Shown here one piece after another: positions 6,151-64,000 of a stretch of DNA of 64,000 bases; the first letter of the stretch is position 1, and every line of letters begins with the position of its first letter. Source of the DNA: Odiellus spinosus. Lineage: Eukaryota > Arthropoda > Arachnida > Opiliones > Phalangiidae. The position numbers and the translations under genes are program-made. The DNA lies in the NCBI GenBank assembly GCA_963920705.1, contig OY987226.1:4404501-4468500 (forward strand), in the 5' to 3' direction. Below the pieces are notes generated by a model that saw nothing but the letters and a program-made list of their open reading frames with translations, searched no databases and was not told the DNA's origin.

Positions 6151-6835
6151 AGAACCAAAAGTCTATTTATTCCATAAAAGCAAGAATTCATTCAGGTTCC
6201 ATAAGAATATGGGAGGGCCGGGATTCAATAACCATCCTCCCAAACTTTGTAGCAAAAGTTCGTCCGCTTCGAATCGATTTTTCAAGTAAATCGCTCCTGA
6301 CATATATTATTAAACCGCGCCACTAACGACCTTGACATAATATTTTGGGCAATAAAAATGGAGCCGACCGAAAAAAAGATCTAAGCGTACAAATGTTGCG
6401 AAAATTGCGGACGAACTTTTGTTACAAAGTTTGGGAGGATGGTATCAGAGGCTAAAACTATGCTCCCATATTCTTATGGAACCTGAATGGATTCTTGATA
6501 AAAGTAAACAACGCCCCGTAGCTTAATACTATCAATAAAGAACCAGTTTACATCAAAGCCAGCACTTAAAAATAGACAAAAAAGTCATCACCCCTGTCTG
6601 GCTCGAGTGATTTGGACTCTTCCTCGATATTTTGAGTCGGGAGAGATGGAGGGAATAAAGGCGGGCCGCGCTTGGTTATATTGTCTTCCAGCCCACTCCT
6701 GAATTTCTCCAAAGAGTGGCGCTTCCGATTTAATTATTTACACAGCGACTACGGCCCATAGAGTGTCTGGAATCAGAATCTGCCGGTACATTTACCCGGA
6801 CCTTTACTGATAGTATTCAGTTTTAAGTAGGGGCT
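6150..6835. repeat. Dispersed repeat family G, copy 1 (split by F1)
   Basis: Family G starts around attccataaaagtaaacaacg and contains gccccgtagcttaatac, tcatcacccctgtctggctc, cgggccgcgcttgg and tggcgcttccgattt, then ends with an inverted form of its start. Partial or split copies occur at 9.2-9.84, 21.9-22.0, 22.76-22.99, 55.55-55.84, 57.68-58.16 and 59.80-59.94 kb. F1 is inserted in its left end. The ~60-bp inverted termini suggest an old non-autonomous DNA transposon. Exact ends are uncertain. Confidence 0.7.
6181..6497. mobile_element. MITE family F, copy 1 (7-bp TSD)
   Basis: It starts CAAGAATTCATTCAGGTTCC, continues ataagaatatggga, and ends with the inverse. The 7-bp direct repeat ataaaag flanks it (6174-6180, 6498-6504). 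The inner part holds a second inverted pair, catcctcccaaactttgta and its complement. No coding capacity. Its only other copy in the window is at 22.44 kb, in mirrored internal orientation. Confidence 0.9.
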
Positions 6836-7186
6836 CAATTTTAATATTGCTCTAATTATATCAATATCTCATTTACTTCAATGTCCGAAGTCTGCAAGGG
6901 TCAATAACTCGTCTAATTTTAGGTTGAAGCTGACAGAGACTGAAAATAGGTAGTAAATCACTTCTGTTCCTTACTCCCTGGGATGGTTCATCACCCAACC
7001 TATCGTATTTCCTTCCTTCCTTCCTTACCAAGCGAGGTACAACGTTCCCATTCCATAATACATGTCTTATAAAATGAACTCCAAAGAGACTCTTAAAGAA
7101 AAGGAGTGGAAAGTTGGCTCATAAAATTATAAAACTCTTTTTTTTTTTTCATAGTAAAATTTAACTCGAATAAGATCATGAAACTG
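6836..7186. other. Non-coding, no recognised feature
   Basis: Contains a short ccttccttccttcctt run near 7010 and a poly-T run near 7140. Nothing else was supported. Confidence 0.4.
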
Positions 7187-7565
7187 TAAAATCAAACCGA
7201 TATTCAAATGGCCAGGAATCGTTTTTAGCGTCACGCGCTCACGCGTTATCTTTAAAATCGATATATCTATAGGTACGTTCACACTTGACACTTTGAAACC
7301 GTTTGCAAACCGTTTCGAGTCGTCAAATCGATTTTTTTTTTAGAATTTAATTAGGTTTCTTGATCAAAGGTCTACACGGGTGACCCCAAAATTTTATTAT
7401 TTGACCTTTCCAAAACGGTTTAAAACGGTTTCAAAGTCTGCAAGTGTGAACGTAGCTTCTCGGTTGTTGAAAACGAATCTGTACGAAACGAAACAGGTTC
7501 CCGAAGCAGTTTCGAAAAATCGTATCAAATGGTTTCGAGCAAAGACGACACTTGGCTTGATTCGG
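7187..7565. mobile_element. Family C: C-long (reverse) interrupted by C-short
   Basis: The left part (7187-7267) and right part (7460-7560) are the reverse complement of C-long as seen at 3.6 and 57.4 kb. Between them, 7268-7459 is a C-short palindrome with acgttcacacttgacactt at one end and aagtgtgaacgtagctt at the other. The 130-codon plus-strand open frame across this region is a by-product of these inverted repeats. Confidence 0.7.
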
Positions 7566-7811
7566 GTCTTATCGGATGGGTCTTCTTCTTCTCCTTTTCC
7601 ATATTCTCTCTGGCTGTTCTCTATATCTCCCTCTGGAATTCGCTTTCGTTGCGAAATTGGCCTATTAAGAAAGGCATCGGACCAGAAATCTAGATCAATA
7701 CCCAAATTCGAGCAGTCAAGCTTAGTTTATATAGGTTTAAGCTTCTACAACACTCAAAATTTTCTTTGTTGAAATATAGGCTGACTCTTTTTACTCAAAG
7801 AGAAGTAATAT

Positions 7812-8239
7812 TAAGGTTCGTACTCAATTTTAGAAGTTAATTTCCCTGACTTTTCCAGGTTTTTCATGATAACTATTTCTAAATAATTTCCCTGAGCAAT
7901 TTTAATATTTTTTCATGAATTTATTTCTATGGGCGAGCTCTTGGAAATACCTATTTTTTACGTGACGTAGTTATCAATCAGGGTCTATATAAGAATATCA
8001 GAGAAAAGGTTAAATCTTTAGGCAATAATGACGTTACAATTAATTGTTCAATCGTTCATAAACAGTTCCTTGACAAATTATTTAATTTATCTGACAATTT
8101 GGGGCCATTTTTAAATTCCCTGACTTTTTCCTGATCTTTTGGGCCAATTTCCAAATTCCCTGACTTTTTCCTGATCTTTTGGGCCAATTTATAAAATTCC
8201 CTGGCTTATCCAGGTTTTGCAGGTCGTGTACTAATCCTG
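7812..8239. mobile_element. MITE family J, copy 1 (5-bp TSD)
   Basis: This is the reverse-oriented relative of the element at 14.1 kb. It shares gaagttaatttccctgactt, tttctaaataatttccct and the ttcatgaat block. The termini are taaggttcgtact and ctaatcctg, slightly decayed from CAGGGTTCGTA. The 5-bp direct repeat aatat flanks it (7807-7811, 8240-8244). Repeated ccctgactttttcctgat units mark an incipient tandem array near 8110-8190. Confidence 0.8.
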
Positions 8240-8264
8240 AATATATTATTATTTAGTATATTAC

Positions 8265-8602
8265 CAGAAGCAGATGAAACCCTCCTTTGAAGTCTATTAC
8301 TCCCGGGTCTTGTCTACCCCTCTCTGTATGGGTTATTCTCAAAAGGCGCGATTCGTACGCCTCCTAACGGTACATGTTTTCGGAGCGGGAGTTTGTCGAG
8401 CGAATATCTCTAGCAGCCTCGGAGTTCGTCAAAAAAACGTAGTCGTTTGTGGAGAGAGAGAATTTCCAATTTTCCGTAGACAATGGGGTATGAAGTAGGA
8501 CCCCTCCGATCTCGTAAAATTGGGAATTTTACCCATACAGAGAGGAGCGCTATATGGAACATTGGAGTAGTAGACTTCAAAGGAGGGTTTCATCGGCTTC
8601 TG
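8265..8602. mobile_element. MITE family D, copy 1 (7-bp TSD)
   Basis: Family D starts CAGAAGCCGATGAAACCCTC (one base differs here, AAGCAG) and has a ~36-bp terminal inverted repeat, followed by an imperfect inverted pair around tcctctctgtatgggt. The target duplication atattac is at 8258-8264 and 8603-8609. It belongs to the subfamily with ttctcaaaaggcgcg. Confidence 0.93.
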
Positions 8603-9210
8603 ATATTACCTATTTTTAATATCCAAAAATTATATATTTTTTTTTATTCGATTTTCTCCAAATTCTGGAACCCAGGTTTCCTGTGTTCCTTTAAGGCTAA
8701 GGCCTATGATAGAGGTCGGGGTTTGGATAAGATAATTTCTGTTTGTTTTATCTTTATTCATAATTTGAAATTATTCGCGGGAAGTCTATGATAAATGCAA
8801 TGTAATCGCGAATAATTAACCGATTATTTTTATGATTAACTGATTAACCAAATATTTGTGGATAATCTTGTTCAAACCCCGACCTCTAGCCTATGAACAC
8901 TTATCAATGTATGAAAATACTACCAAATAGATAATTCCAAGCAGACTTCTTTATGAACACATTAAATTTATTATCATATTAGAAAATATTTGCGGAAGTG
9001 GAAAATAGGTTATTTCCGCTATATAAAGTAAGGTTAAGTTGTTGGGAAAAGTGCCATGGATAGAACTCTGGGTAAGACGATTTCACCATTACTTAGGTAC
9101 TTGAAACAAAAATGCGAAATAAAGTTGAACTCCGAGCATCTCTAGAAACGAAGACAAATCCGATTTTAAAAGTCCCGGATGCAATTTTATAAATATAGTC
9201 TTACGTATAA
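8603..9210. other. Non-coding, no recognised feature
   Basis: AT-rich; no gene or repeat relationship was supported. Confidence 0.4.
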
Positions 9211-9350
9211 TATCAGAAGTCAATTCTTTTATTCCATAAAAGTAAGCAGCTTAATACTATCAGCAAACGTTTACTAGCCTATCGCTTAAAACAAGCCAGA
9301 AAAGTCAGCACCCCTGTCTGGCTGAAGTGAAATGGACACTATTATTTTAA
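9211..9350. repeat. Family G fragment
   Basis: Contains attccataaaagtaagcagc, taatactatcagcaaacg and gtcagcacccctgtctggct, matching the left half of G at 6.5 kb, with deletions. Confidence 0.65.
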
Positions 9351-9380
9351 TCAGAAAACAGTAGACGTGCTGTTTTCATA

Positions 9381-9842
9381 GTATCAAAAGTCTAATAATT
9401 TATTCCATAGAAGTAAACAACGCCCCGTATCTTAATAATATCAGAAAAGGCAGAAGCCGATGAAGTCTATTACTCCCGGGTCTTGTCTACCCCTCTCTGT
9501 ATGGGTTAGTTTCAAAAAGCGCGATTCGTACGCCTCCTAACGGTAGATATTTTCGAAGCGGGAGTTCGTCGAGAGAATATCTCTAGCAGCCTTGAAGTTC
9601 GACAAAAAAACGTCGTCGTTTGTGGAGAGAGAGAATTTCCAATTTTCCGTAGACAGGGGGGTATGAAGTAAGACCCCTCCGATCTCGTAAAATTTAGAAT
9701 TTTACCCATACAGAGAGGAGCGCTATATGGAACATTGGAGTAGTAGACTTCGAAGGAGGGTTTCATCGGCTTCTGGTATTAAGTTACGTGGCGTTGTTTA
9801 CTTTTATGGAATAAAATGATAGACTTTTGATAATATCAAAAC
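9381..9842. repeat. Family G inverted ends enclosing D2
   Basis: The left flank of D2 (9381-9450) is one G terminus, with attccatagaagtaaacaac. The right flank (9776-9842) is its reverse complement, ending ataaaatgatagacttttga. D2 therefore lies inside a short G copy. Confidence 0.7.
9451..9775. mobile_element. MITE family D, copy 2 (TIR deletion, no clear TSD)
   Basis: It is a family D element with about 13 bp missing from the left terminal repeat, just after cagaagccgatga. The flanking heptamers (gaaaagg and gtattaa) do not match, unlike nearly all other D copies, so one side was rearranged after insertion or insertion took another route. Confidence 0.88.
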
Positions 9843-10468
9843 TTAAGCGATGTAAAACTTTAAAAGGGTATTAGGATTTTATTTTCGTAAGAATATAAGA
9901 ATGGTTTTCATTCTTAACAGAGTATATCGTTTACTTGGTAAAGTTAAATCCCCAATATAGAACTTGAAGAATATTATTTGTTATAGAGATTCCTAGCTCC
10001 CATCATTCCGAGAAAAGAAAGATGAGATCTTGGTGTTCATGAGCTGACGTAATGTAAAAATATTAATGCGGATTGAGACGTAATAATAAACCCGATAAGA
10101 CTCGAAAGTAGTTTTCTCTAACTCATCTTGAAATAAAGTTTATATAGATTTCATTTTTCATTTCTTATAGGCCCTTCTCAAAGTCCTTGGGAAAATCCCG
10201 TTTTGTGTCGAACCTTAGTATTTTATCCATTGCCTTAAATCTCAAAAGCCAATTTGAAATCCACTTCTAATCAGGTCCGGAGTTGTTTTTTTTTTATTTA
10301 TACTCATCTCCAAACTATACGAGTCTAAAAAGGATATAGTCAGAATGACTTTTTTAGTTTCAATTCGTAAAAGACAGACTCATCTCAGGATATATTGTTA
10401 AAGCAGTGTTTTCATTGGTTATCTATAGCCAATGAAATAATAGTTATGGTTAAAGAAAATCCAGTTCT
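9843..10468. other. Non-coding, no recognised feature
   Basis: No frame, repeat or signal could be supported. Confidence 0.4.
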
Positions 10469-10472
10469 TTAA

Positions 10473-10953
10473 AGGGAGAATGAAAGGCCGTAACAACCTA
10501 TTCTTAATCGATTAAGAATGCTAAAATAATGAGAAAAACAATAATATAACTCACCAAAAATATTTCATTATTTTATAATCAATTTCCAAAGTTCCGATGC
10601 TAAGCCTAAGCTGCCTAGCTCGGTGAACTAGGCTAGCACGACCCGTATTTTTTTTAATATTCGCGGCTGTTCTTGTCGCCAATCACGAGCGACTACACGT
10701 ATTTTAAAGATACGCGTACTCGCTCGTGATTGGCGACTAGATCAGACGGGAATATTAAAAAAAAAAAAATACGGCTCGTGCTCGCCTAGTTTGCCGAGCT
10801 AGGCCGCCAAGGCTTAGCATCTGCAAGTTTCGGAACTTTGAAAATTGATTATAAAATAAGGAAATATTTTTGGTGAGTTATATTATTGTTTTTCTCATTA
10901 TTTTAGCATTCTTTTCGATTAAGAATAGGTTGTTTCGGCCTTTCATTCTCCCT
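10473..10953. mobile_element. TTAA palindromic MITE family H1, copy b
   Basis: Near-identical to the copy at 4.9 kb: AGGGAGAATGAAAGGCC terminus, TTAA on both sides (10469-10472, 10954-10957), and a full-length fold-back with an aatcacgagcgac/gctcgtgatt stem next to the loop. Confidence 0.9.
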
Positions 10954-13064: not shown

Positions 13065-13068
13065 TTAA

Positions 13069-13501: not shown

Positions 13502-13505
13502 TTAA

Positions 13506-15192: not shown

Positions 15193-15484
15193 CAAGAAGG
15201 ATCAAATAAGGAGAGGAAAAGTGGGAACGGCGCGGCTCCTACTGCATCGGCCTAAACTCCCACTCTGGGAGAACGGGGGACAGACGGGGGTAGAGATGCT
15301 TCGTGGTAAAATGTTGTCGCGTGGATAAAACGAATCCTTTATGAGACGCGCTAGCTAGCGACCACGTGACAACAGTTTACCTCGAGAATTTCCTATCCCC
15401 CCTTTCCACCCGAGTGGGAGGTTGGCTCTTCTCTCTCTAACTCAACGCAGCCCCACTTTTCCTCTCCTTATCTGATCCTTCTTG
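15193..15484. mobile_element. MITE family E, copy 1 (7-bp TSD)
   Basis: Family E begins CAAGAAGGATCAGACAAGGA (aaataagga here) and ends with the inverse. The interior carries cccactctgggagaacgggg and an inverted cacccgagtgggaggttggc. The 7-bp target duplication is gtttcat (15186-15192, 15485-15491). Confidence 0.92.
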
Positions 15485-17419: not shown

Positions 17420-17464
17420 CGAGTATGGGGCGCCAAACAGGACATAATTCAGGTTTTATCTTCA

Positions 17465-18660
17465 TATATTTCTAGTTTAAAAAATATATTTCTAGTTTAA
17501 CAAATATATTTCTAGTTTAAAAAATATATTTCTAGTTTAACAAATATATTTCTAGTTTAACAAATATATTTCTAGTTTAAAAAATATATTTCTAGTTTAT
17601 CAAGTTTAGGTTCGTATATATCAAGTTTAGCTTCGCATATATCAAGTTTACCTTCGTATATATCAAGTTTAGCTTCGCATATATCAAGTTTACCTTCGTA
17701 TACATCACGTTTACCTTCGTATATATCAAGTTTAGGTTCGTATATATCAAGTTTAGCTTCGCATATATCAAGTTTACCTTCGTATATATCAAGTTTACCT
17801 TCGTATATATCAAGTTTACCTTCGTATATATCAAGTTTACCTTCGTATATATCAAGTTTACCTTCGTATATATCAAGTTTACCTTCGTATATATCAAGTT
17901 TAGCTTCGTATATATCAAGTTTAGCTTCGTATATATCAAGTTTAGCTTCGTATATATCAAGTTTACCTTCGTATATATCAAGTTTACCTTCGTATATATC
18001 AAGTTTAGCTTCGCATATATCAAGTTTACCTTCGTATATATCAAGTTTAGCTTCGTATATATCAAGTTTAGCTTCGTATATATCAAGTTTAGCTTCGTAT
18101 ATATCAAGTTTAGCTTCGTATATATCAAGTTTAGCTTCGTATATTTCTAGTTTAGCTTCGTATATTTCTAGTTTAGCTTCGTATATTTCTAGTTTAGATT
18201 CGTATATTTCTAGTTTAGCTTCGTATATTTCTAGTTTAGCTTCGTATATTTCTAGTTTAGCTTCGTATATTTCTAGTTTAGCTTCGTATATTTCTAGTTT
18301 AGCTTCGTATATTTCAAGTTTAGCTTTGTATATTTCTAGTTTAGATTCGTATATTTCTAGTTTAGCTTCGTATATTTCTAGTTTAGCTTCGTATATTTCT
18401 AGTTTAGCTTCGTATATTTCTAGTTTAGATTCGTATATTTCTAGTTTAGATTCGTATATTTCTAGTTTAGATTCGTATATTTCTAGTTTAGATTCGTATA
18501 TTTCTAGTTTAACTTCGTATATTTCTAGTTTAACTTCGTATATTTCTAGTTTAACTTCGTATATTTCTAGTTTAACTTCGTATATTTCTAGTTTAACTTC
18601 GTATATTACTAGTTTAACTTCGTATATTACTAGTTTAACTTCGTATATTACTAGTTTAAA
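17465..18660. repeat. Left-arm minisatellite (20-bp then 18-bp units)
   Basis: About seven 20-bp units (aaaatatatttctagttta) are followed by about sixty 18-bp units. Unit variants change along the array in runs: first tatcaagttta(c/g)cttcg, then tttctagtttagcttcg, tttctagtttaacttcg, and finally ttactagtttaacttcg. Confidence 0.93.
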
Positions 18661-19261: not shown

Positions 19262-19750
19262 ATAAACTGTTTAAACTAGTAATATACGAAGTTAAACTAG
19301 AAATATACGAATCTAAACTAGAAATACACGAAGTTAAACTAGAAATACACGAATCTAAACTTGAAATATACGAACCTAAACTAGAAATATACGAAGCTAA
19401 ACTTGATATATGCGAAGCTAAACTTGATATATGCGAAGCTAAACTTGATATATGCGAAGCTAAACTTGATATATACGAAGCTAAACTTGATATATACGAA
19501 GCTAAACTTGATATATACGAAGCTAAACTTGATATATACGAAGCTAAACTTGATATATACGAAGCTAAACTTGATATATACGAAGCTAAACTTGATAAAC
19601 TAGAAATATATTTGTTAAACTAGAAATATATTTGTTAAACTAGAAATATATTTGTTAAACTAGAAATATATTTGTTAAACTAGAAATATATTTGTTAAAC
19701 TAGAAATATATTTGTTAAACTAGAAATATATTTGTTAAACTAGAAATATA
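19262..19750. repeat. Right-arm minisatellite (inverted, shorter)
   Basis: 18-bp units (gatatatacgaagctaaact) followed by eight 20-bp units (ctagaaatatatttgttaaa). It mirrors the left arm but has about half the length. Confidence 0.93.
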
Positions 19751-19795
19751 TGAAGATAAAACCTGAATTATGTCCTGTTTGGCGCCCCATACTCG

Positions 19796-21472: not shown

Positions 21473-21809
21473 CAGAAGCCGATGAAACCCTCCTTTGAAG
21501 TCTACTACTCTAATGTTCGATATAGCGTTCCTCTCTGTATGGGTAAAATTCCCAATTTTACGAGATCGGAGGGGTCCTACTTCATACCCCCTGTCTACGG
21601 AAAATTGGAAATTCTCTCTCTCCACAAACGACGACGTTTTTTTGACGAACTCCGAGGCTGCTAGAGATATTCGCTCGACGAACTCCCGCTCCGAAAATAT
21701 CTACCGTTAGGAGGCGTACGAATCGCGCTTTTTGAAACTAACCCGTACAGAGAGGGGTAGACCAGATCAGGGAGTAATAGACTTCAAAGGAGGGTTTCAT
21801 CGGCTTCTG
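21473..21809. mobile_element. MITE family D, copy 3 (7-bp TSD)
   Basis: Full-length element in the orientation with the tctaatgttc end at left. Flanked by cttacaa (21466-21472) and cttataa (21810-21816), a 7-bp duplication with one change. Subfamily with ctttttgaaactaaccc. Confidence 0.92.
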
Positions 21810-22436
21810 CTTATAAGGAGACTACCGAGGTGTTGTCCAAAGTCTGCCAGAATGTAGACCTATCTAAGATATTAAAACCCCCAAAAGGAGGCGACGCACT
21901 ACCCATTAGTTTGGTCATGGCAACCGAAAATGTATTTGGCCATTAAGCACCTAGTAAAAATACTAGCCCATCATTTAAAACTAGCCAAAAGTCATCATCC
22001 CTGTCTACCTCGAATGATTTTGAGGAATTAAGGCGGGCCATAATGACGAACTCTTTGTCCACTTTCAATAAACTAATTTAATTCAATTAATTGAACTACC
22101 ATATAGGATATGGTTCATTATTTTGTTATTATTATGAATATCTTTATCCTTTACAATGTATAGACGCGTATCAACTTATTAAACCAGCCTTTCTGTTTTA
22201 AACAAGTGATTTAAATAATCTCAGCAACGCGCCAAAATTATCCTCTGTCGATTCTCCTTAAATCCTTAATCCTATTAGCATTTTTAATAAAACCCGGAGG
22301 AATCCCATTTTCTGCAGATTATGTTCTATATCGATAGCGCATAATTGAAGGGCAGCTCTTATTACTTCCTACATGGCTGAGAAACCATATTTTAATTTTA
22401 AAGTAATAGAATTTAATAATATTTACCAAGAATCCA
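21810..22436. repeat. Non-coding with a family G fragment (about 21935-22045)
   Basis: The phrases tagcccatcatttaaaacta, gtcatcatccctgtctacct and ggcgggcc match the middle of G. The remainder is unassigned. Confidence 0.5.
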
Positions 22437-22742
22437 TTCAGGTTCCATAAGAATATGGTAGCATAGCTTTAGCCTCTGGTACCATCCTCCCAAACTTTGT
22501 AACAAAAGTTCGTCCGCAATTTTCGCAACATTTGTACGCTTAGATCTTTTTTCGGTCGGCTCCATTTTTATTACCCAAAATATTATGTCAAGGTCGTTAG
22601 TGGCGCGGGTTAATAATAGATTTCAGGAGCGATTTACTTGAAAAATCGATTCTAAGCGGACGAACTTTTGCTACAAAGTTTGGGAGGATGTTTATTGAAT
22701 CGCGGCCCTCCTATATTCTTATGGAACCTGAATGGATTCTTG
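22437..22742. mobile_element. MITE family F, copy 2 (7-bp TSD)
   Basis: Starts CAAGAATCCATTCAGGTTCC and ends with the inverse. The duplication tatttac is at 22430-22436 and 22743-22749. The interior is the reverse complement of F1, including the ggtcggctccatttttatta-type block and the paired cctcccaaactttgta stems. Confidence 0.92.
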
Positions 22743-25699: not shown

Positions 25700-25980
25700 C
25701 AAGGAGGATTAGACAAGGAGAGGAAATGTGGGGCTGCGTTGAGTTAGAGAGAGAAGAGCCAACCTCCCACTCGGGTGGAAAGGGGGGATAGGAAATTCTC
25801 GAGGTAAACTGTTGTCACGTGGTCGCTAGCTAGCGCGTCTCATAAAGGATTCGTTTTACCCACGCGACAACATTTTACCACGAAACGTCTCTACCCCCGT
25901 TCTCCCAGAGTGGGAGTTTAGGCCGACGCAGTAGGAACCGCGCCGTCCCCACATTTCTTCTCCTTGTCTAATCCTCCTTG
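25700..25980. mobile_element. MITE family E, copy 2 (7-bp TSD)
   Basis: Starts CAAGGAGGATTAGACAAGGA, ends with its inverse, and is flanked by attaggg (25693-25699, 25981-25987). The interior is the reverse complement of E1. Confidence 0.92.
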
Positions 25981-27913: not shown

Positions 27914-28216
27914 CAAGAAGGATCAGACAAGGAGAGGACAAGTGGGAATGGCGCGGTTCCTACTGCGTCGGCCTAAACTCCCACTCTGGGAGAACGGGGG
28001 ACAGTCGGGGGTAGAGATGCTTCGTGGTAAATTGTTGTCACGTGGGTAAAACGGATCCATTATGAGACGGGTAGTAGCCGACGACGCTAGCGACCACGTG
28101 ACAACAGTTTACCTCGAGAATTTCCTATCCCCCCTTTCCACCAGAGTGGGAGGTTGGCTCTTCTCTCTCTAACTCAACGCAGCCCCACTTTTCCTCTCCT
28201 TGTCTGATCCTTCTTG
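27914..28216. mobile_element. MITE family E, copy 3 (7-bp TSD)
   Basis: CAAGAAGGATCAGACAAGGA terminus and its inverse. Duplication gtatatc at 27907-27913 and 28217-28223. Confidence 0.93.
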
Positions 28217-28249: not shown

Positions 28250-28541
28250 CAAGAAGGATCAGACAAGGAGAGGAAAAGTGGGGACGGCGCAGTTCCTACT
28301 GCGTCGGCCTAAACTCCCACTCTGGGAGAACGGGGGTAGAGATGTTTCGTGGTAAAATGTCGTCACGTGGGTAAAACGGATCCATTTTGAGACGGGTAGT
28401 AGCCGACGACGCTAGTGACCACGTGACAACAGTTTCGCTCGAGAATTTCCTATCCCCCCTTTCCACCCGAGTGGGAGGTTGGCTCTTCTCTCTCTAACTC
28501 AACGCAACCCCACTTTTCCTCTCCTTGTCTGATCCTTCTTG
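28250..28541. mobile_element. MITE family E, copy 4 (7-bp TSD)
   Basis: Same orientation as E3 and only 33 bp downstream of it. Its own duplication, accgcta (28243-28249, 28542-28548), shows it is an independent insertion, not a tandem copy of E3. The unusual gtagtagccgacgacgctag stretch is shared by E3 and E4 but not E1 or E2, so E3 and E4 are close relatives. Confidence 0.93.
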
Positions 28542-31036: not shown

Positions 31037-31374
31037 CAGAAGCCGATGAAACCCTCCTATGAAGTCTACTACTCTAATGTTCCATATAGCGCTCCTCTCT
31101 GTATGGGTAAAATTCCCAATTTTACGAGATCGGAGGGGTCCTACTTCATACCCCCTGTCTACGGAAAATTGGAAATTCTCTCTCTCCACAAACGACGACG
31201 TTTTTTTTGACGAACTCCAAGGCTGCTAGATATATTCGCTCGACGAACTCCCGCTCCGAAAATATCTTCCGTTAGGAGGCGTACGAATCGCGCTTTTTGA
31301 AACTAACCCATACAGAGAGGGGTAGACAAGACCCGGGAGTAATAGACTTCAAAGGAGGGTTTCATCGGCTTCTG
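31037..31374. mobile_element. MITE family D, copy 4 (7-bp TSD)
   Basis: Full-length element, duplication gaaacac at 31030-31036 and 31375-31381. It lies about 300 bp beyond the 3' end of the receptor gene. Confidence 0.94.
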
Positions 31375-34065: not shown

Positions 34066-34403
34066 CAGAAGCCGATGAAACCCTCCTTTGAAGTCTACTA
34101 CTCTAATGTTCCATATAGCGCTCCTCTCTGTATGGGTAAAATTCCCAATTTTACGAGATCGGCGGGGTCCTACTTCATACCCCCTGTCTACGTAAAATTG
34201 GAAATTCTCTCTCTCCACAAACGACGACGTTTTTTTGACGAACTCCAAGGCTGCTAGAGATATTCGCTCGACGAACTCCCGCTCGGAAAATATCTACCGT
34301 TAGGAGGCGTACGAATCGCGCCTTTTGAGAATAACCCATACAGAGAGGAATAGAGAAGACCAGGGAGTAATAAACTTCAAAAGGAGGGTTTCATCTACTT
34401 CTG
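34066..34403. mobile_element. MITE family D, copy 5 (7-bp TSD)
   Basis: Flanked by gatacgt (34059-34065) and gttacgt (34404-34410), one mismatch. The right terminus reads tctacttctg, a variant shared with D9, while the left terminus has the usual gccgatg. Subfamily with cttttgagaataaccc. Confidence 0.92.
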
Positions 34404-35178: not shown

Positions 35179-35515
35179 CAGAAGCCGATGAAACCCTCCT
35201 TTGAAGTCTACTACTCTAATGTTCCATATAGCGCTCCTCTCTGTATGGGTAAAATTCACAATTTTACGAGATCGGAGGGGTCCTACTTCATACCCCCTGT
35301 CTACGGAAAATTGGAAATTCTCTCTCTCCACAAACGACGACATTTTTTTGACGAACTCCCAAGGCTGCTAGAGATATTCGATCGACGAACTCCCGCTCCG
35401 AAAATATCTACCGTTAGGAGGCGTACGAATCGCGCTTTTTGAAACTAACCCATAAAGAGAGGGGTAGACAAGACCCGGAGTAATAGACTTCAAAGGAGGG
35501 TTTCATCGGCTTCTG
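35179..35515. mobile_element. MITE family D, copy 6 (7-bp TSD)
   Basis: Duplication ccaagat at 35172-35178 and 35516-35522. It interrupts what may have been a coding or intron boundary on the minus strand (ctag/ATCTTGG). Confidence 0.94.
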
Positions 35516-36823: not shown

Positions 36824-37123
36824 CAGAAGCCGATGAAACCCTCCTTTGAAGTCTATTACTCCCGGGTCTCGTCTACCCCTCTCTGTATGGGTTATTCTCA
36901 AAAGGCGCGATTCGTACGCCTCCTAACGGTAGATGTTTTCGGAGCGGGAGTTCGTCGAGCTAATATCTCTAGCAGCCTTGGAGTTCGTCAAAAAAACGTC
37001 GTCGTTTGTGGAGAGAGAGAATTTCCAATTTTCCGTAGACAGAGGGGTATGAAGTAGGACCCCTCCGATCTCGTAAAATTGTGAATTTTACCCATACAAA
37101 GAGGAGCGCTATATGGAACATTA
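36824..37123. mobile_element. MITE family D, copy 7 (right end truncated)
   Basis: The left terminus is complete. The element stops matching after ggaacatta, lacking the last ~38 bp, including the whole right terminal repeat. Consequently no target duplication can be assigned. Confidence 0.9.
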
Positions 37124-37876
37124 CGTAGTATTCTTAATCCCATTAACTTGATTGTATAACACTTTTGCATATAGATTATAAATATCCTAGACGTTTGCCA
37201 AAAATGGTGACGGTGTCACTTTAAGTTTATTTTCCGAGAACTCGGAATGGGGTTCTTGTCTTAGTTTCTTTCCCAGAGGATACAACTCTGAGATAGGTCT
37301 TATAATGAGTTTCATATTGATTTTTCAAGTTTTGAGGACCCCGCGTGACCCACCAGCTTTCTACGGGGACTAGGACCTAAACCTCTAGAAATAGATCCAA
37401 CCGCTGCTTATAAAACTATATATAATACCTCGTAGTATCCTCTTTTTATATCACTGTCAAGTTATCTTATATAGATTGTCCTTGAACTCTGACCTTTGAC
37501 TTCCATTGCCATATTTCTAAACGAAAGCAGTTTCATCACAATGAATTTTAACCTGATGTATTTCGTAATTGGCCAAAATTTCTTTGAACTCGAGACGAAG
37601 TGAAATAAGAAACATTTAAAGATATTTGGAGACTTTCTGTTTGTTAGAATTTGCGAAACATAAACAAAAACAAGTTGACTTTGTCTTTTGAACTTTTCGT
37701 CTTTGTGTTGTGAAATAAACGAGAAATTGGTGGATATGAAAAGCAAAAGGTCGTGAATGTAGACTTAAAAACAATGTTTTTCTAGTTAATTTGAAAAACC
37801 ACTTTGTTCTAATTAGGCTTAGTAGTTTTATTGTTAATTGAAAAGTAATTTTGTTTAAATTAGTCCCCTAGACTGG
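37124..37876. other. Non-coding, no recognised feature
   Basis: No gene. A 94-codon minus-strand frame at 37462-37746 has no motif. Confidence 0.4.
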
Positions 37877-37881: not shown

Positions 37882-38102
37882 TAATGGATTTCTAACTCTA
37901 ATCACAAGAGAAAATGACAAGACTTCTATGCACAACGAGTGTTTAATAAGCGAGTGACCGGAAAATAATACAAAGCTGTCTTTATATATAATTAGGAATC
38001 ACTTTAAAAAAAGAAACAACTAAACAAGTGATAACAATAAAAAAATAGTGTAAACATTGTTCTATATAATTTTTCGTAACATGCTGTCGCTCTATTCCAT
38101 CA
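37882..38102 (-). repeat. 3' LTR of the copia element
   Basis: 221 bp, no difference from the 5' LTR found by eye. The gag-pol stop codon lies inside it (38092-38094). Confidence 0.95.
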
Positions 38103-41100: not shown

Positions 41101-42087
41101 GGGTCCAAAGCATTTTAAAATTCCGTTGCCAATCCCTTCGGCCTTGATCGTGGACTCATCTGCCAGATGAATATTCTCACTGCGCTTTTCCATACTTTTG
41201 AAAAATTCTTTATCACTTGTCATATGGCTCGTCGCGCCTGAATCGACGTACCAGGCAGCTAATGCAGCGGGGATATTCGTAGCCATGAATGCGGTAAACT
41301 CCCTGGTTCTAGAGTGTCCTACTGCGCATTTATTCTTCTGTGCTTCATCAGCTGACGTTCGTTTGCTCTGATCTCGTTTCATCCGCCTGCAATCCATTTT
41401 TAAGTGTCCTGGTTTCTTACAGTAAAAACACACCCGTGTTTCTCTCTTGTGGCCAGCCTTATGTCCATTGTTTGTCGTATTTAAAGCTACTTCTGCCTTG
41501 GCTCCCTCGAAACAGTGCCCATTTTCTTGCCGTCGATTAAACTCGTCGATGACTTTGCTCCGAACAAATTCCAGGGTAAGCTCATCTGAGGGTCTGACCT
41601 CCAATGCTGTTATTAATGTATCATACGTGTCTGGAAGGCTACATAGCAGGATGGCTGCGAGATTCGAATCTGGGATTGTCTCGCCTATTCCACGTAGACG
41701 TTCAGCAATTTCCAGCATACCCTTGACGTGTTGCTGCATTTGTTGCCCTTCCTGATATCGCATCTTGTAGAGTCGTCGAAGCAGGAACAATTTACTGCTG
41801 AAGTTTGCCTGTTCATGAAGCTTTTGAAGGATTAGCCACATGTCCTGTGCGCTGTCCGCATTTACGATATGTATCAGCTGGTCATCATCAACGGCAAGCA
41901 CGATGATTGCTTGTGCTTGTGTATCCTTTTTCGTCCAGGCAGCAGTTATGTCTGAAGGTGTAGGCTTCTCAACAACGTCCCACAGCTCATCTCGGGTGAG
42001 GATCATCTTTATCTTAAATTTCCAGAGTTGATAGTTCCCATTGTTTAACTTCTCCACCAAGAGTCTTGCATCTCCGCTTTTAGCCAT
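38092..42087 (-). CDS. Copia gag-pol polyprotein
   Basis: 1331 residues in a single uninterrupted frame starting at ATG 42087, 109 bp inside the PBS. Order of domains is that of Ty1/copia: Gag (about 1-215) with a CX2CX4HX4C zinc knuckle at 220-233; aspartic protease with DSG at 282-284; integrase with H410/H418-C447/C450 zinc site and D477, D540, E576 (D,D-35-E); reverse transcriptase from about 845 with D923 and the YVDD box at 1009-1012; RNase H from about 1170 with D1175, E1216 and D1252. It copies the RNA into DNA inside virus-like particles and integrates it. All catalytic residues I could check are present. The C-terminus runs 11 bp into the 3' LTR, which is unusual but consistent with the overlapping PPT. 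Gag and Pol share one frame, so Gag would be made by splicing or processing. Confidence 0.97.
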   Translation of the reverse strand: MAKSGDARLLVEKLNNGNYQLWKFKIKMILTRDELWDVVEKPTPSDITAAWTKKDTQAQAIIVLAVDDDQLIHIVNADSAQDMWLILQKLHEQANFSSKLFLLRRLYKMRYQEGQQMQQHVKGMLEIAERLRGIGETIPDSNLAAILLCSLPDTYDTLITALEVRPSDELTLEFVRSKVIDEFNRRQENGHCFEGAKAEVALNTTNNGHKAGHKRETRVCFYCKKPGHLKMDCRRMKRDQSKRTSADEAQKNKCAVGHSRTREFTAFMATNIPAALAAWYVDSGATSHMTSDKEFFKSMEKRSENIHLADESTIKAEGIGNGILKCFGPKGDIRNIPVNNVLYVPKLGGSLLSVHQLARTGHKITFEENSCCINEGEEVITTAKMDGSLYRLQMQSTSMVKSATHEECLHLWHRRMGHRDPLAVKTLHTKDLANGITLNNNQVMPPCDFCLKGKMSQVPFPTSTSRSKQPFDTVHSDVCGPMKKATIGGNRYLVTFIDDYSRFTEIYLIKTKGEVQRVLQEYVAVYSNKFRRKPLTIRTDNGGEYMSKELDLYLKKEGIKHELTVPYTPQQNGVAERKNRSLIEMAKCMLLDAKLADCWWGEAVNTANYLQNRLPSKAIEKTPYELWNGVKPKIGHIRVFGSRAFSYVPKERRTKWDDKALDGILVGFGIATKGYRILNPKTNMVHYSRSVRFDEGVGTSNCQYNITVPVIPTKQEGEAKSDIKEEPNIKEEPDLNLTNFSDSNVSDYQDVEDMEDTIVLHEETIEKPSQEAANQPGEQLSARRYPTRTNQGIPPKKLGYKASVDHIREPSTWNDITNLPERESIKWQEAAKEEFKSLEERKTWELTDLPKGRKAIGCRWIFKVKYNQHGDIDKYKARLVAKGNSQKYGEDFEETYAPVAKYETIRILLSVAASKELRVKHFDVKTAFLHGIIEEDLYMDQPPGFLKKGQEQKVYKLKKSIYGLKQSARSWNQKVNRVLLKENFERSKADPGLYSRREENDNWSYILLYVDDLLVASRNVDVIECLLEKLNLHFETKDLGDVTYYLGIQIQRKEDGSFIMHQATKIKHLLEDFGMEEAKPSQTPMDMAYLKLLGEDNLLPNNTQYRTAIGKLLHIATVSRPDIAASVNILCRRVAKPRECDWVAVKRIMRYLKGTIDAALLLPSAKEITLVGYVDADYAGDHSDRKSTSGYLFKIGRATISWSSRKQSTVALSSTEAEYIAAAHAAQEVIWLRQILQDIGYKQSRPTTLYEDNQGCIKMSLSEKSSPRTKHIDVKHYFLRDMQEKTIIDLCYCQTNEMLADVLTKPLIKERLYYHMSNLGIIRICREGVME
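38103..38111 (-). promoter_or_regulatory. Polypurine tract
   Basis: gagaagggg on the element strand, immediately before the 3' LTR. It overlaps the final codons of gag-pol. Confidence 0.8.
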
Positions 42088-43532: not shown

Positions 43533-43860
43533 CAGAAGCCAATGAAAGCCTCCTTTGAAGTCTATTACTCCCGGGCCTTGTCTACCCCTCTCTGTATGGG
43601 TTAGTTTCAAAAAGCGCTATTCGTACGCCTCCTAACGGTAGATATTTTCGGAGCGGGAGTTCGTCGAGCGAATATCTCTTGCAGCCTTGGAGTTCGTCAA
43701 AAAAAACGTCGTCGTTTGTGGAGAGAGAGAATTTCCGATTTTCCATAGACAGGGGGTATGAAGTAGGACCCCTCCGATCTCGTAAAATTGGGAATTTTAC
43801 CCATACAGAGAGGAGCGCTGTATGGAACATTAGAGTAGTAGACTTCAAAGGAGGGTTTCA
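43533..43860. mobile_element. MITE family D, copy 8 (right terminus deleted)
   Basis: Left flank heptamer gtttcat at 43526-43532. The element ends at gagggtttca and lacks the final tcggcttctg. gtttcat also occurs inside the D terminus, so recombination between it and the right-hand target duplication would produce exactly this end. Confidence 0.9.
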
Positions 43861-44639
43861 AATACGAATATTAAAGTCATTTAGTCTTTTTTCCTGAAAC
43901 TTTTCACTTCCTCCTTAAAAATTCCAACTTGCAATGCATCTTTGTTGAAATTCCGTTTCACATTAATAATACTAGAGCCTTGAGAACTAAATCTGTTCTT
44001 GAATGAACGAATAATATAAAGTTAGAGCCCGATTTTAGAGACAGAGAAAAAAAAAAGACATGATTTGGTAAAACGGCAGACAGAAACCCATTTTTGTAAG
44101 ATGGTTGAAAAATAGTGTCTGGGTGGGTATGAGGTGTCATCAGACTATGGTGTGGTAGCCAAGCGCGATTCATTCCTTGGCATTGGGCTGTAACAAACGT
44201 GTCTGAATCCCCGGAAGCTGAAGAGAAAGGAATAGATCTTACATCCTTCCACTCCCACCCACCATCTTCCAATCGTTTTCTCTTTGGAAATAACAAAAAC
44301 AAGAGAAAAAACATTCCATCCATCGGACCTTTCGGAACTTATATAAAAAAAAAAAAAAAAATTGTAAAATGAAAAAAAAAAAAATCGAAAGAAAATAAAA
44401 AAGTTCCTTTCGATTCTTGAGAAACTCAGTAATATATTGTCGTAGAGGCCAAACAAGGAACGTCCAGCTACCATTTACTTTTTTTCAAAGATATTTTTGT
44501 TTTTCCAATTTAAAGGAGACGATTGTTTGTGTAGAGCAAAATAGACAAAGCGATTGGGGTGTGTGTTATGTATTATAAAACCTTATTTATATAAATGAAA
44601 TTTTACGTTAAGTAAAATTAAAGTTAGGCTATCACGGAT
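43861..44639. other. Non-coding with A/T homopolymers
   Basis: Runs of A at 44347-44400 generate a phenylalanine-rich minus-strand frame. No gene was supported. Confidence 0.4.
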
Positions 44640-46256: not shown

Positions 46257-47902
46257 AACTAGACCCAATTAATTGACCCTAGACCCAATTAATTGACCCT
46301 AGACCCAATTAATTGACCCTAGACCCAATTAATTGACCCTAGACCCAATTAATACACCCTAGACCCAATTAATTGACCCTAGACCCAATTAATTGACCCT
46401 AGACCCAATTAATTGACCCTAGACCCAATTAATTGACCCTAGACCCAATTAATTGACCCTAGACCCAATTAATTGACCCTAGACCCAATTAATACATCCT
46501 AGACCCAATTAATACACCCTAGACACAATTAATTGCCCCTAGACACAATTAATACACCCTAGACCCAATTAATACACCCTAGACCCAATTAATTCACCCT
46601 AGACCCAATTAATTCACCCTAGACCCAATTAATTCACCCTAGACCCAATTAATTCACCCTAGACCCAATTAATTCACCCTAGACCCCAATTAATTCACCC
46701 TAGACCCCAATTAATTAACCCTAGACCCCAATTAATTAACCCTAGACCCCAATTAATTAACCCTAGACCCCAATTAATTAACCCTAGACCCCAATTAATT
46801 AACCCTAGACCCCAATTAATTAACCCTAGACCCCAATTAATTAACCCTAGACCCCAATTAATTAACCCTAGACCCCAATTAATTAACCCTAGACCCCAAT
46901 TAATTAACCCTAGACCCCAATTAATTAACCCTAGACCCCAATTAATTAACCCTAGACCCCAATTAATTAACCCTAGACCCCAATTAATTAACCCTAGACC
47001 CCAATTAATTAACCCTAGGCCCAATTAATTGACCCTAGACCCAATTAATTGACCCTAGACCCAATTAATTGACCCTAGACCCAATTAATTGACCCTAGAC
47101 CCAATTAATTGACCCTAGACCCAATTAATTGACCCTAGACCCAATTAATTGACCCTAGACCCAATTAATTGACCCTAGACCCAATTAATTGACCCTAGAC
47201 CCAATTAATTGACCCTAGACCCAATTAATTGACCCTAGACCCAATTAATTGACCCTAGACCCAATTAATTGACCCTAGACCCAATTAATTGACCCTAGAC
47301 CCAATTAATTGACCCTAGACCCAATTAATTGACCCTAGACCCAATTAATTGACCCTAGACCCAATTAATTGACCCTAGACCCAATTAATTGACCCTAGAC
47401 CCAATTAATTGACCCTAGACCCAATTAATTGACCCTAGACCCAATTAATTGACCCTAGACCCAATTAATTGACCCTAGACCCAATTAATTGACCCTAGAC
47501 CCAATTAATTGACCCTAGACCCAATTAATTGACCCTAGACCCCAATTAATTGACCCTAGACCCCAATTAATTGACCCTAGACCCCAATTAATTGACCCTA
47601 GACCCCAATTAATTGACCCTAGACCCCAATTAATTGACCCTAGACCCCAATTAATTGACCCTAGACCCCAATTAATTGACCCTAGACCCCAATTAATTGA
47701 CCCTAGACCCCAATTAATTGACCCTAGACCCCAATTAATTGACCCTAGACCCCAATTAATTGACCCTAGACCCCAATTAATTGACCCTAGACCCCAATTA
47801 ATTGACCCTAGACCCCAATTAATTGACCCTAGACCCCAATTAATTGACCCTAGACCCCAATTAATTGACCCTAGACCCCAATTAATTGACCCTAGACCCA
47901 AT
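46257..47902. repeat. 20/21-bp satellite (ccctagacccaattaattga)n
   Basis: About 80 units in four blocks: 46257-46685 (20 bp, mixed ttgac, tacac and ttcac variants), 46686-47020 (21 bp, extra C, ttaac), 47021-47535 (20 bp, ttgac), 47536-47895 (21 bp, extra C, ttgac). Blocks are internally homogeneous with sharp borders. The Gly-Leu-Ile-Asn-Trp repeat frames exist only where the unit is 21 bp. Confidence 0.97.
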
Positions 47903-48498
47903 TATTGAGCGAAATTCAAATATTTGAATCTAGAAATTACACAATAAGGATTTTTTAAGTCTTTTAGCATCTTTGTTTTTTTTTTATAATCTCGAGATCA
48001 AAGGTTACGTTGATATTACATGTTTTTAAACAGCCCCTCCTCTCCTCCCGATTTTGGAAGTGGACAAATAATATCCACGTTTTTTCTCCCCATATCATTG
48101 CGCCCCTTTTTGATTATTTGCCCCTCCCCGCGCTTAACGCGTTACTACCGGTACAAACAGTCTACAGAGTAGAGGTACAACGACGGGCAGGAAACCCAAG
48201 CGAACTGCTTTAAAACCGCGGGAAATCATTTCTTAGTGTACGCGGTAATTTACAATGCGCGTTTTATTTAAGATCGTTAGGCTTAGTTTTTAGCTTTGTT
48301 AGGTATGAAAAAACCACCCTAATTTTGAACTGTCCGGATTCCAAGGGGTGTGAAGTTTATTTTTGTTTAAATTAAATATGTGTACGTGACTACGAATGTT
48401 AAGTTGGTGTCAGAAATCTCCAAGTTTCGATTGAAAGTAAGTTTAATATCTTTCTTCAGTAAACGTATTTTCGAACCCACAATTTCTTAATTCGCCTA
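47903..48498. other. Non-coding, no recognised feature
   Basis: Nothing supported. Confidence 0.4.
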
Positions 48499-57671: not shown

Positions 57672-58165
57672 AGAGTCCAAACCACTAGAGCCAGACAGGG
57701 GTGACAACGTTTTTGGACTATTTTTATGTGATGGGCTAGACTAGACCTTTGCCAGAAGTAGATGAAACCCTCCTTTGAAGTCTATTACTCCCGGGTCTTG
57801 TCTACCCCTCTCTGTATGGGTTAGTTTCAAAAAGCGCGATTCGTACGCCTCCTAACGGTAGATATTTTCGGAGCGGGAGTTCGTCGAGCGAATATCTCTA
57901 TCAGCCTTGGAGTTCGTCAAAAAAACGTCGTCGTTTGTGGAGAGAGAGAATTTGCAATTTTCCGTAGACAGGGGGTATGAAGTAGGACCCCTCCGATCTC
58001 GTAAAATTGGGAATTTTACCCATACAGAGAGGAGCGCTATATGGAACATTAGAGTAGTAGACTTCAAAGGAGGGTTTCATCTACTTCTGCCTTTGCTGAT
58101 AATATTAAGCTACTGGGAGCTGTTTACTTATATGGAATAAAGTGGTAGGCTTTTGCTATTATAAC
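57672..58165. repeat. Family G end split by D9
   Basis: cagacaggggtgacaacg and gatgggcta at left, and gataatattaagctactggg, ttatatggaataaag at right, are the two sides of a G end. Confidence 0.7.
57753..58089. mobile_element. MITE family D, copy 9 (7-bp TSD)
   Basis: Duplication cctttgc at 57746-57752 and 58090-58096. Both termini carry the gtagatg variant. Inserted within G. Confidence 0.94.
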
Positions 58166-59024: not shown

Positions 59025-59028
59025 GGGT

Positions 59029-60638: not shown

Positions 60639-60976
60639 CAGAAGCCGATGAAACCCTCCTTTGAAGTCTATTACTCCCGGGTCTTGTCTACCCCTCTCTG
60701 TATGGGTTATTCTCAAAAAGCGCGATTCGTACGCCTCCTAACGGTAGATGTTTTCGGAGCGGGAGTTCGTCGAGCGAATATCTCTATCAACCTTGGAGTT
60801 CGTCCAAAAAACGTCCTCGTTTTGTGGAGAGAGAGAATTTCCAATTTTCCGTAGACAGGGGGGATGAAGTAGGACCCCTTCTAACTCGTAAAATTGGGAA
60901 TTTTACCCATACAGAGAGGAGCGCTATATGGAACATTGGAGTAGTAGACTTCAAAGGAGGGTTTCATCGGCTTCGG
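60639..60976. mobile_element. MITE family D, copy 10 (7-bp TSD)
   Basis: Duplication tttaaag at 60632-60638 and 60977-60983. The right terminus ends cttcgg, one substitution from cttctg. Confidence 0.93.
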
Positions 60977-60983
60977 TTTAAAG

Positions 60984-61120
60984 GGAAACTTAAGCCTCGT
61001 TCATACTTGAGGGCAGAAATCGGTTCCAAAACCAGTACGAAGCGTTTTCCGTTTTCCCTGGTTCACACGCTGACAAGACGGTTCGCGGCCGTTCGCCCCG
61101 GTTCGACCTAAGCCAAGGCT
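60984..61120. repeat. C-like fragment
   Basis: aagcctcgttcatacttgag at left and ctaagccaaggctta at right suggest a small, diverged member of the C type. Confidence 0.45.
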
Positions 61121-61231
61121 TAGCGTCGTTTTAAAAAATGCCCAAAACTTAAATATTTTAAATAGTTATCTCAAACTAATTAGTAAATCGTGTTTGTAAC
61201 TCGTTGGTTAATAATTTTTGACAGAAACTAT

Positions 61232-61485
61232 AATTTAAAGATCTTTCAAGAAGCCAGGAAATTACAATTATATCTACAGAAAAGATTGGAACCTAATCGT
61301 GTCAGTTGTATAGATTAGAACAAAGATATTCGTGCAAAAGGTTCGGCGACCGCGAGTATATAAAAAATAAAAGGTTAAAAATTGGGTAGTATTAGTTGAA
61401 ACGGTCAGGGAAAATCGTTGAAAAGGTTCGGGAAAAACCTGGAAAAGTCAGGGAATTTAAATCTGAAAAAACTGTGACAACCCTG
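61232..61485. mobile_element. M-family element, 5' truncated
   Basis: Starts at taaagatctttcaagaagcc, lacks the left terminus, and keeps the right terminus tgtgacaaccctg. Closely follows the right part of the 51-52 kb element. Confidence 0.8.
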
Positions 61486-61955
61486 TGTTTTCTGAATCAT
61501 ATAGAATAATAATTTGGTTCTGAAATTTTCGTATTAATTTAAGCGCGTTAACTAAACTTTGCGTGATAGGATGATGAACCGCTTTGTACGCGCCGGACTT
61601 TTAAGATTCTCGGGACCTCTTATTTTCAAAGTCTATATTTTTCTCGGCCATGGAAAAGAGATAGGAGGAAATAGGGAACGGATCTTCCGCAAGATTTATA
61701 CGACGGATTATAAATGGCGCAGTTTACTTTCAGAAACCCGGATGCTATATCGACAAGTAGCCCGAGTCCACCCATGCCCACCCGCTTGCCGTACAACGTT
61801 GGCGTGAGAGTGAAAAAAAAAAAATAAAAAATTGGCTAAACTTTTATATTTTTATATATACCGATTAGATCATATACAGGGTGTAACCTAGATTTGTAAA
61901 AGGGATATTGAAGTTGATACACAATTTTTCTATCAATTAGGTTTTTGAAATTAAG
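61486..61955. other. Non-coding, no recognised feature
   Basis: An 82-codon frame (61559-61807) shows no motif. Confidence 0.35.
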
Positions 61956-62735
61956 GCTGTAACGTATTTTTATCAACTCCAAATTGAAATTGAGTAACAT
62001 TTTCGGAGAGATCGTTAAAAAAAGATTCAAAATATATATACATGCAGAAGCCGATGAAACCCTCCTTTGAAGTCTATTACTCCCTGGTCTTGTCTACCCC
62101 TCTCTGTATGGGTTAGTTTCAAAAAGCGCGATTCGTACGCCTCCTAACGGTACATATTTTCAGAGCGGGAGTTCGTCGAGCGAATATCTCTAGCAGCCTC
62201 GGAGTTCGTCAAAAAAACGTCGTCGTTTGTGGAGAGAGAGAATTTCCAATTTTTCGTAGACAGGGGGTATGAAGTAGGACCCCCTCCGATCTCGTAAAAT
62301 TGTGAATTTTACCCATACAGAGAGGAGCGCTATATGGAACATTAGAGTAGTAGACTTCAAAGGAGGGTTTCATCGGCTTCTGATACATGTCATAGAACAA
62401 AATTACCACGACAGTATGATCAATATGATCACGTGGCTATTGTAGAGCCTACAGTTGATTTTCGCGTGTTGTGGTACAAGTGATGTCGCTTTCGCGCGAT
62501 CTTTTTCATGAAAGTACTTAATCCAGAAAGTTAAAGAGAGCGGCACCGTAAATATGAAATGGGGAATGTGCAGTTCAAGGCTAGTACCGTTGGGTTCATC
62601 TGATTGGTCCAATTTTATACTTTAACTGAAATTCAAATTAAACTAAACTTTAGAAATTAATTTAAACATCAAAAACGTATCCAATTAATGCGAATAACTT
62701 CTTGAAAACGTGATTTCGAAAATAATTGGAACTAA
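61956..62735 (-). repeat. Family A copy c (reverse, split by D11), joined to I
   Basis: ccaaattgaaattgagtaac, cggagagatcgttaaa before D11, and aaaattaccacgacagta, tgatcacgtggctattgtag after it, are the inverse of the copy at 2.4-3.2 kb. From about 62550 it continues into family I (tctgattggtccaatttt). I and A may therefore be parts of one longer repeat. Confidence 0.75.
62045..62382. mobile_element. MITE family D, copy 11 (7-bp TSD)
   Basis: Duplication atacatg at 62038-62044 and 62383-62389. Full length, inserted in family A. Confidence 0.94.
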
Positions 62736-62985
62736 AATTGATATTTAACTTATATTTTCCCTTTTATATTGATTCACTTGATTTCGCAACGATAAGCAAA
62801 CGATCTAGAAGATATTCGACTCTATTTCGTTTTAATAAATAATAAAGCGCGGGTTTTCAAGTAATGTATTTTGTATGGGTGCCTGTAGAAGTGTTCAACT
62901 AGCAGTGCACCAAAGTTCCGTGCAAAGCCTCCCACCAGGGTGAAAATAATAATCTTAAATTCATATTTCCAAGATCGCTGCTTGA
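62736..62985. other. Non-coding, no recognised feature
   Basis: Nothing supported. Confidence 0.35.
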
Positions 62986-63425
62986 ATTCTAAATGGAAAT
63001 AGCATTTTCGGAAATATCGTTAACCGGGTTGCCACAGGTCAGGGAAAACAGGAAAAAGTCAGGGAATTTGAAAATGAACCAAAAAGGAGAGGGAATTTTA
63101 AGAGATTTTAAAAAGTCAGGGAATTTAAAGATCTTTCAAGAAGCCAGGAAATTTGAATCTGAAAAAACTGTGCCAACCCTGTTAAAACTATTATATATCT
63201 CATAGAAAAAATTAACTCGAATGATAAAATACAAATTTTATAATCGCCAATTTCGAAATTTTTAAAATAAATATTCCACGCAATAATACGTCATCACAAT
63301 GGTCGCTTGGCTATTATAGAATCTACACTTGATTCTCGGGCGTTCCGACACCAATGATAAGGTCGGTTTCACGCGATCATTATCATAAAAGGTTCTACAT
63401 TTCGTACGAAAATCATCGTTAATTA
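62986..63425 (-). repeat. Family A copy d (reverse, split by M4)
   Basis: ctaaatggaaatagcatttt, cggaaatatcgttaa before M4. After it, caataatacgtcatcacaat, ggctattatagaatctacac and gataaggtcggtttcacgcg are the inverse of A. Confidence 0.72.
63024..63181. mobile_element. M-family element, short, TTAA target
   Basis: 158 bp. Left terminus ccgggttgccaca, right terminus tgtgccaaccctg (inverse with two changes). TTAA on both sides (63020-63023, 63182-63185); the TTAA matches the gatcgttaaa site of uninterrupted family A. Internally deleted relative to other M copies. Confidence 0.82.
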
Positions 63426-63513
63426 TATTCCAAAAATAAACTAATTCATATATCGGAAAAAATGACTCAAATATTTTGAAATTTTTGAAAATAAAAAAGG
63501 TTTTAAATAGTAC

Positions 63514-63851
63514 CAGAAGCCGATGAAACCCTCCTTTGAAGTCTACTACTCCAATTTTCCATATAGCGCTCCTCTCTGTATGGGTAAAATTCCCAATTTT
63601 ACGAATTAGAAGGGGTCCTACTTCATCCCCCCCCTGTCTACGGAAAATTGGAAATTCACTCTCTCCACAAACGACGACGTTTTTGGACGAACTCCAAGGC
63701 TGCGAGAGATATTCGCTCGACGAACTCCCGCTCCGAAAACATCTACCGTTAGGAGGCGTACGAATCGCGCCTTTTGAGAATAACCCATACAGAGAGGGGT
63801 AGACAAGACCAGGGAGTAATAGACTTCAAAGGAGGGTTTCATCGGCTTCTG
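63514..63851. mobile_element. MITE family D, copy 12 (7-bp TSD)
   Basis: Duplication atagtac at 63507-63513 and 63852-63858. Full length, subfamily with cttttgagaataaccc. The last 140 bp of the window after it show nothing. Confidence 0.94.
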
Positions 63852-64000
63852 ATAGTACCGGTATGAAAAACAAAAATTTAATTATAAACTTTCGAAAATG
63901 GTGATAGCATCACTTCAAAATAGAAAATACCGCAACCCCTTCTTCTTGTGTAGTTATTGCGTGAAATATAAATCTTGTTAAATATTTATCTTCGATTTTT

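Follow-up and report, generated by a model that had tools for sequence, protein, structure and literature searches.

The transposons most similar to the elements studied here are members of the P superfamily. Galileo of Drosophila leaves a 7-bp target site duplication (TSD), with a few copies at 8 bp, at the target GTANTAC (PMC4168063), and has its THAP-domain binding site at 63-80 bp, beyond a terminal segment of about 40 bp (PMC3688188). For 1360/Hoppel the modal TSD is 7 bp and the target GTTNAAC (PMC3276498). The P element of Drosophila melanogaster produces 8-bp TSDs at the target GTCCGGAC. It has a 31-bp terminal inverted repeat (TIR) and, at about 41-63 bp, an internal site for the transposase (PMC7776569, PMC3688188), the THAP sites lying at 41-51 and 53-63 bp (PMC3688188) and in asymmetric positions at the two ends (PMC7776569). 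In Anopheles gambiae, small miniature inverted-repeat transposable elements (MITEs) with P-like ends carry 8-bp TSDs set by the P transposase (PMC1562414). In this work we analysed a 64,000-nucleotide stretch of the Odiellus spinosus genome (the window, G000:C2:4404501-4468500) that contains copies of three MITE families, here called D, E and F, together with the rest of the searched genome (443 Mb in 286 contigs). Our results indicate that D, E and F are very probably three separate non-autonomous families of the P superfamily, moved by P-type transposases.

The original prediction held that 7-bp repeats flank the copies of the three families; all copies were found in their positions and their duplications were confirmed. 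Ten of the 12 D copies in the window have two ends, and among these the 7-bp duplication is perfect in seven, has one mismatch in two (21473 and 34066) and is lacking in one (9451), while it is perfect in all four E and both F copies. Over the 16 two-ended copies the mean identity of the flanks was 0.94 at 7 bp, versus 0.20-0.31 at all other lengths from 2 to 12. Scans blind to family gave the same picture: with 12-base ends and elements up to 5 kb, all 12 window matches at a TSD of 7 bp were D, E or F, and with 14-base ends and elements up to 6 kb this was so for seven of eight, the eighth (5135-10702) looking like a chance match. The tabulation of duplication lengths was extended to the window plus loci L006-L035, of which L006-L009 were picked for listed D ends and L010-L029 are positions on contigs C1 and C2, five of them near the window; L001-L005 were omitted (four overlap L006 or L007, L005 does not), and copy 9451 is absent because its left end exceeds four mismatches. 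Among 54 paired copies, 39 showed an exact 7-bp duplication and nine a 6/7 match; one F copy (L012) had an exact 6-bp and one D copy (L027) an exact 8-bp duplication, and four had none, two of these being mispaired nested ends. The 8-bp or variable duplications named beforehand as the contrary outcome were not borne out among these copies (1/54 each for 8 and 6 bp). In duplication length the three families resemble Galileo and 1360/Hoppel, the latter likened by published description, and are unlike the P element and the Anopheles P-MITEs. They are also abundant: the genome holds 26,149 D ends (21-mer, up to two mismatches), 8,562 E ends (34-mer, up to three) and 5,780 F ends (32-mer, up to three), with zero matches for each reversed-pattern control, and halving these counts gives a rough estimate of 13,000 D, 4,300 E and 2,900 F copies.

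The same genome encodes many P transposases, and the four elements with resolved ends are also flanked by 7-bp duplications. A profile search with PF21788, the TNP-like GTP-binding domain (GBD), returned at least 144 genome matches, a lower bound as 150 of 164 candidates were scored; 14 control genomes had no match. Open frames of 626-929 aa hold 30 of these matches, and one of the 30 has an internal stop. Six transposase loci were fetched (L030, L031, L032, L033, L034 and the element at C1:507640, in a locus overlapping L010). All six contain RNaseH_N and GBD, and five of them THAP (L031, L032, L033, L034 and the C1 element), RNaseH_C appeared in all three tails scanned (L030, L031, L033), and a helix-turn-helix match in L034 fell slightly below the cut-off. 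This THAP plus RNase H/GBD organization is that of the Drosophila melanogaster P element, and the L033 protein matched the solved P transposase 6p5a with E=8e-20. The sampled transposases are about 27-47% identical to each other over the main aligned stretches. Element ends could be resolved in four of the six loci, and all four have a perfect 7-bp TSD: L031 663-6106 (CTCCAAT), L033+L036 835-6504 (ATATTAT), L034 635-5952 (GTAGAAT) and C1:507640-512220 (GTTTATA). Additionally, a 923-bp element at L009 6623-7545, with CATGGAAAA ends and the TSD ATTTTAG, contains a decayed P-type THAP exon similar to the L032 transposase (tblastn E=2e-6 in a small set of fetched loci plus the window). This is a P element with an internal deletion, and its duplication is again 7 bp long.

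Target sites of D, E and F agree with the GTANTAC of Galileo. In the 39 exact duplications position 2 is T in 29 and position 6 is A in 25, and matches to GTANTAC exceed expectation in each family (D 70/150 versus 41; E 27/54 versus 15; F 16/30 versus 8), as well as in the other 7-bp families (22/42 versus 11.5) and in the P-transposase elements (12/24 versus 6.6). The excess is significant against genome 7-mers (P from 0.00005 to 0.011) and against within-site shuffles (P from 0.00005 to 0.026). Next to the TSD, the flank profile shows T at -2 (0.68) and A at +10, being symmetric by construction as it was averaged over both strands; this mostly T base at -2 differs from the A in the AANGT of Galileo. 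The ends of the elements also recall the P superfamily. In six tested copies the TIRs start with CA and measure 38 bp in D, 34 bp in E and 30-35 bp in F, unlike the very long, internally repetitive inverted repeats of Galileo. A second, subterminal inverted repeat begins 51-62 bp inward from the termini in five of these copies and at 76-78 bp in the E copy at 25700, and in all six it surpassed all 100 shuffles; in D and F its positions on the two sides are 3-4 bp apart. A short TIR followed by an internal site is the arrangement of the P element, and a site beyond the terminal segment is that of Galileo. The THAP sites of both are within this range, and the subterminal repeats likely represent putative binding sites for a THAP domain.

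Taken together, the 7-bp TSDs around P transposases, the deletion derivative, the GTANTAC-like targets and the subterminal repeats indicate the P superfamily as the most likely source of D, E and F. The original prediction had listed P/Galileo among the nearest candidates, and P is now favoured by the presence of P transposases with 7-bp TSDs in the same genome. According to this proposal, a P-type transposase made elsewhere, with a THAP domain and an RNase H fold that a GTP-binding insertion interrupts, would attach to the subterminal sites and then pair and cut the element ends; insertion through 7-bp staggered cuts at AT-rich GTANTAC-like targets would leave the 7-bp duplication. D, E and F would have been moved by such P enzymes, each family by its own transposase, and most likely different P lineages mobilised the three.

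Several observations weigh against a P-superfamily origin. Among the elements seen, none combines a transposase with the termini of D, E or F, and the DNA similarity of these families to the sampled P elements was not significant. Of the four transposase-bearing elements, just one had a subterminal repeat that beat all shuffles, so the subterminal anatomy is support and not proof. The four resolved P-transposase elements start with CA in two cases, CT in one and CG in one, and for the L030 and L032 elements ends were looked for and none found. Moreover, the target preference was first noticed on D, E and F sites, so that only the P-transposase and other 7-bp sets give a partly independent test of it. 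In no single family were the 7-bp sites significantly self-complementary (P=0.09 for D, 0.44 for E and 0.81 for F); with all 50 sites pooled, P was 0.03.

Regarding the missing partner, none of the D, E or F elements seen codes for a transposase, a situation unlike that of the Anopheles P-MITEs, for which related full-length P elements were found (PMC1562414). D ends that depart from the MITE continuation gave 143 matches, and none of the 100 listed lay near a PF21788 match when inspected by eye, most of these 100 looking like insertion or deletion variants of the MITE. The corresponding search for F gave eight matches, none near a PF21788 match by eye. Both searches need near-exact ends, so diverged partners would be missed.

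The original prediction further held that one transposase type encoded elsewhere drives all three families. The part of this claim that is supported is that of a single superfamily, with P favoured; a cross-mobilising system restricted to D, E and F was not sustained, as ten families show the 7-bp TSD together with CA-purine ends. In the 14-base scan over the sampled loci and the window, 32 of 34 rows at a TSD of 7 bp have CA ends, and beyond D, E and F they hold seven more CA-ended types, giving ten MITE-type families; one of the additional types, F2 (CAAGAATAGATTCA), is possibly kin of F. Exact 7-bp duplications with CA, any base and purine ends occur in these ten sampled families, as well as in two of the four transposase-bearing elements whose ends were resolved. 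When the ten and the four were compared as 14 families, omitting two non-CA rows as likely chance (L014 999-1764 and window 5135-10702), 12 of 14 start with CA, and positions 4-6 are purines in 13 of 14. Since such ends and the 7-bp duplication are spread over many families, CA(A)GAA ends do not set D, E and F apart, and both the 7-bp stagger and the CA-purine ends seem to characterise the P superfamily of this genome. Among the sampled loci, a 5,886-bp element at L010 794-6679 also has a 7-bp TSD (CACTAAG), with CAGGAACACTCTAT ends, and the one open reading frame (ORF) of it that was scanned (1411-1905) showed no domain above the cut-off.

A stricter form of the shared-enzyme idea is that one P-type transposase moves D, E and F alike through a common CA(A)GAA end. 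The three families do have the same TSD length and prefer the same targets, the terminal hexamer of both E and F is CAAGAA, and an E-F subterminal match of 10/11 at 60/56 bp reached uncorrected P values of 0.04 and 0.018 in two tests. This match was nevertheless lost after correction for 91 comparisons, and no other similarity between the subterminal regions of D, E and F survived multiple testing. Bases 7-40 of their inverted repeats were no more alike than shuffles (P from 0.68 to 0.997), and, as seen above, the first bases of the ends do not single out the three families. Furthermore, the divergence of the sampled P transposases means that there are many candidate enzymes, each of which could drive one family. 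A single end-recognising transposase was rejected on the unlike inverted repeats and subterminal regions; we regard it as possible, though improbable and not favoured over separate P-type enzymes.

Another feature of the P elements is an additional ORF that converges on the transposase gene from the other strand, seen at L030 4773-6224 (-), L031 4536-5723 (-) and L033 4531-5196 (-). Within a five-sequence set compared with phmmer, the L030 and L031 products are clearly similar and that of L033 weakly so. No Pfam match above the cut-off was obtained for this ORF, and it showed no significant similarity to the C-terminal portion of the transposase in L035. In comparisons with solved structures one search gave no match, and the other six weak ones with unrelated names, the best at E=0.058. 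L034 carries a separate THAP ORF on the minus strand (5415-5714), and in the element at C1:507640-512220 the plus strand holds the frame that follows the transposase. It may be speculated that the P superfamily has here diversified into a two-gene form, in which a catalytic THAP/RNaseH/GBD protein and the product of the convergent gene mobilise MITE families such as D, E and F in trans, the second protein perhaps providing a DNA-binding function or a C-terminal one that was separated from the canonical transposase; we consider this unlikely.

An origin outside the P superfamily has less in its favour. D, E and F could be hAT elements with a 7-bp instead of an 8-bp stagger, as hAT targets also read NTNNNNAN, and T at position 2 with A at the last position but one is the pattern of hobo (NTNNNNAN) too (PMC3276498). 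The modal TSD of hobo is, however, 8 bp (PMC3276498), versus 7 bp in 48 of the 54 copies tabulated here. In addition, every resolved transposase-bearing element with a 7-bp TSD (4/4) encodes a P transposase. D, E and F are also without CAGGG-type ends, which we take to be those of hAT. The local control for this comparison is weak: among CAGGG-ended elements in the 14-base scan, one (L015 3833-4196) has an 8-bp repeat and the others have 5 or 6 bp. On TSD length and the P transposases a hAT source was rejected as very improbable. Dada was rejected on its targets and is hardly credible, for although its TSD length of 6-7 bp (PMC3706591) would fit, this length is equally explained by P-type elements, and the Dada families described there target snRNA or tRNA genes, whereas the sites of D, E and F are varied and AT-rich, in a window with no tRNA or Rfam match.

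Individual copies in the window are as follows. D copies, with strand relative to the first of them, are found at 8265..8602 (+, TSD ATATTAC, 7/7), 9451..9775 (+, left inverted repeat rearranged, without TSD), 21473..21809 (-, TSD 6/7), 31037..31374 (-, GAAACAC), 34066..34403 (-, TSD 6/7, with one CCGATG and one TAGATG end), 35179..35515 (-, CCAAGAT), 36824..37160 (+, left end only, without right end), 43533..43870 (+, degenerate right end), 57753..58089 (+, TAGATG subtype at both ends, CCTTTGC), 60639..60976 (+, TTTAAAG), 62045..62382 (+, ATACATG, TIR of 38 bp and subterminal repeat at 55/58) and 63514..63851 (-, ATAGTAC); the right limits of those at 36824 and 43533 are approximate. E copies, with strand relative to the one at 15193..15484 (+, GTTTCAT), are at 25700..25980 (-, a CAAGGAGGATTA variant, ATTAGGG), 27914..28216 (+, GTATATC) and 28250..28541 (+, ACCGCTA, TIR of 34 bp, subterminal repeat at 62/62), and the alignment of these four copies shows lengths of 281, 292 and 303 in 11-bp steps. 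F copies are at 6181..6497 (+, ATAAAAG, TIR of 35 bp, subterminal repeat at 51/55) and 22427..22742 (-, TATTTAC, TIR of 30 bp, subterminal repeat at 57/53).

Other elements share the window. A 179-bp element at 8710-8888, unlike D, E and F, is bounded by perfectly matching inverted ends of 14 bases (TAGAGGTCGGGG) and flanked by the 8-bp duplication GCCTATGA. A copia polyprotein is encoded at 38092-42087 (-) in an open frame of 1,331 aa. The window is also rich in minisatellites: arrays of 21-bp and 20-bp units at 17464-18648 and 19272-19751 are inverted to each other, their longest pairs being 89-95% complementary, and a 20-bp minisatellite of about 81 copies at 46259-47908 falls where, in bins of 4 kb, the GC skew of the window is most negative.

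The assignment of D, E and F to the P superfamily is well supported but fairly ordinary, and the idea of cross-mobilisation is not needed. It answers the question left open by the original prediction, since the 7-bp duplication in this genome most likely marks the P superfamily. A MITE load of about 20,000 copies in three families, as estimated from the halved end counts, probably traces to that superfamily. Finally, the 7-bp TSDs around four divergent P transposases in one genome make the 7-bp and 8-bp staggers comparable within the superfamily.

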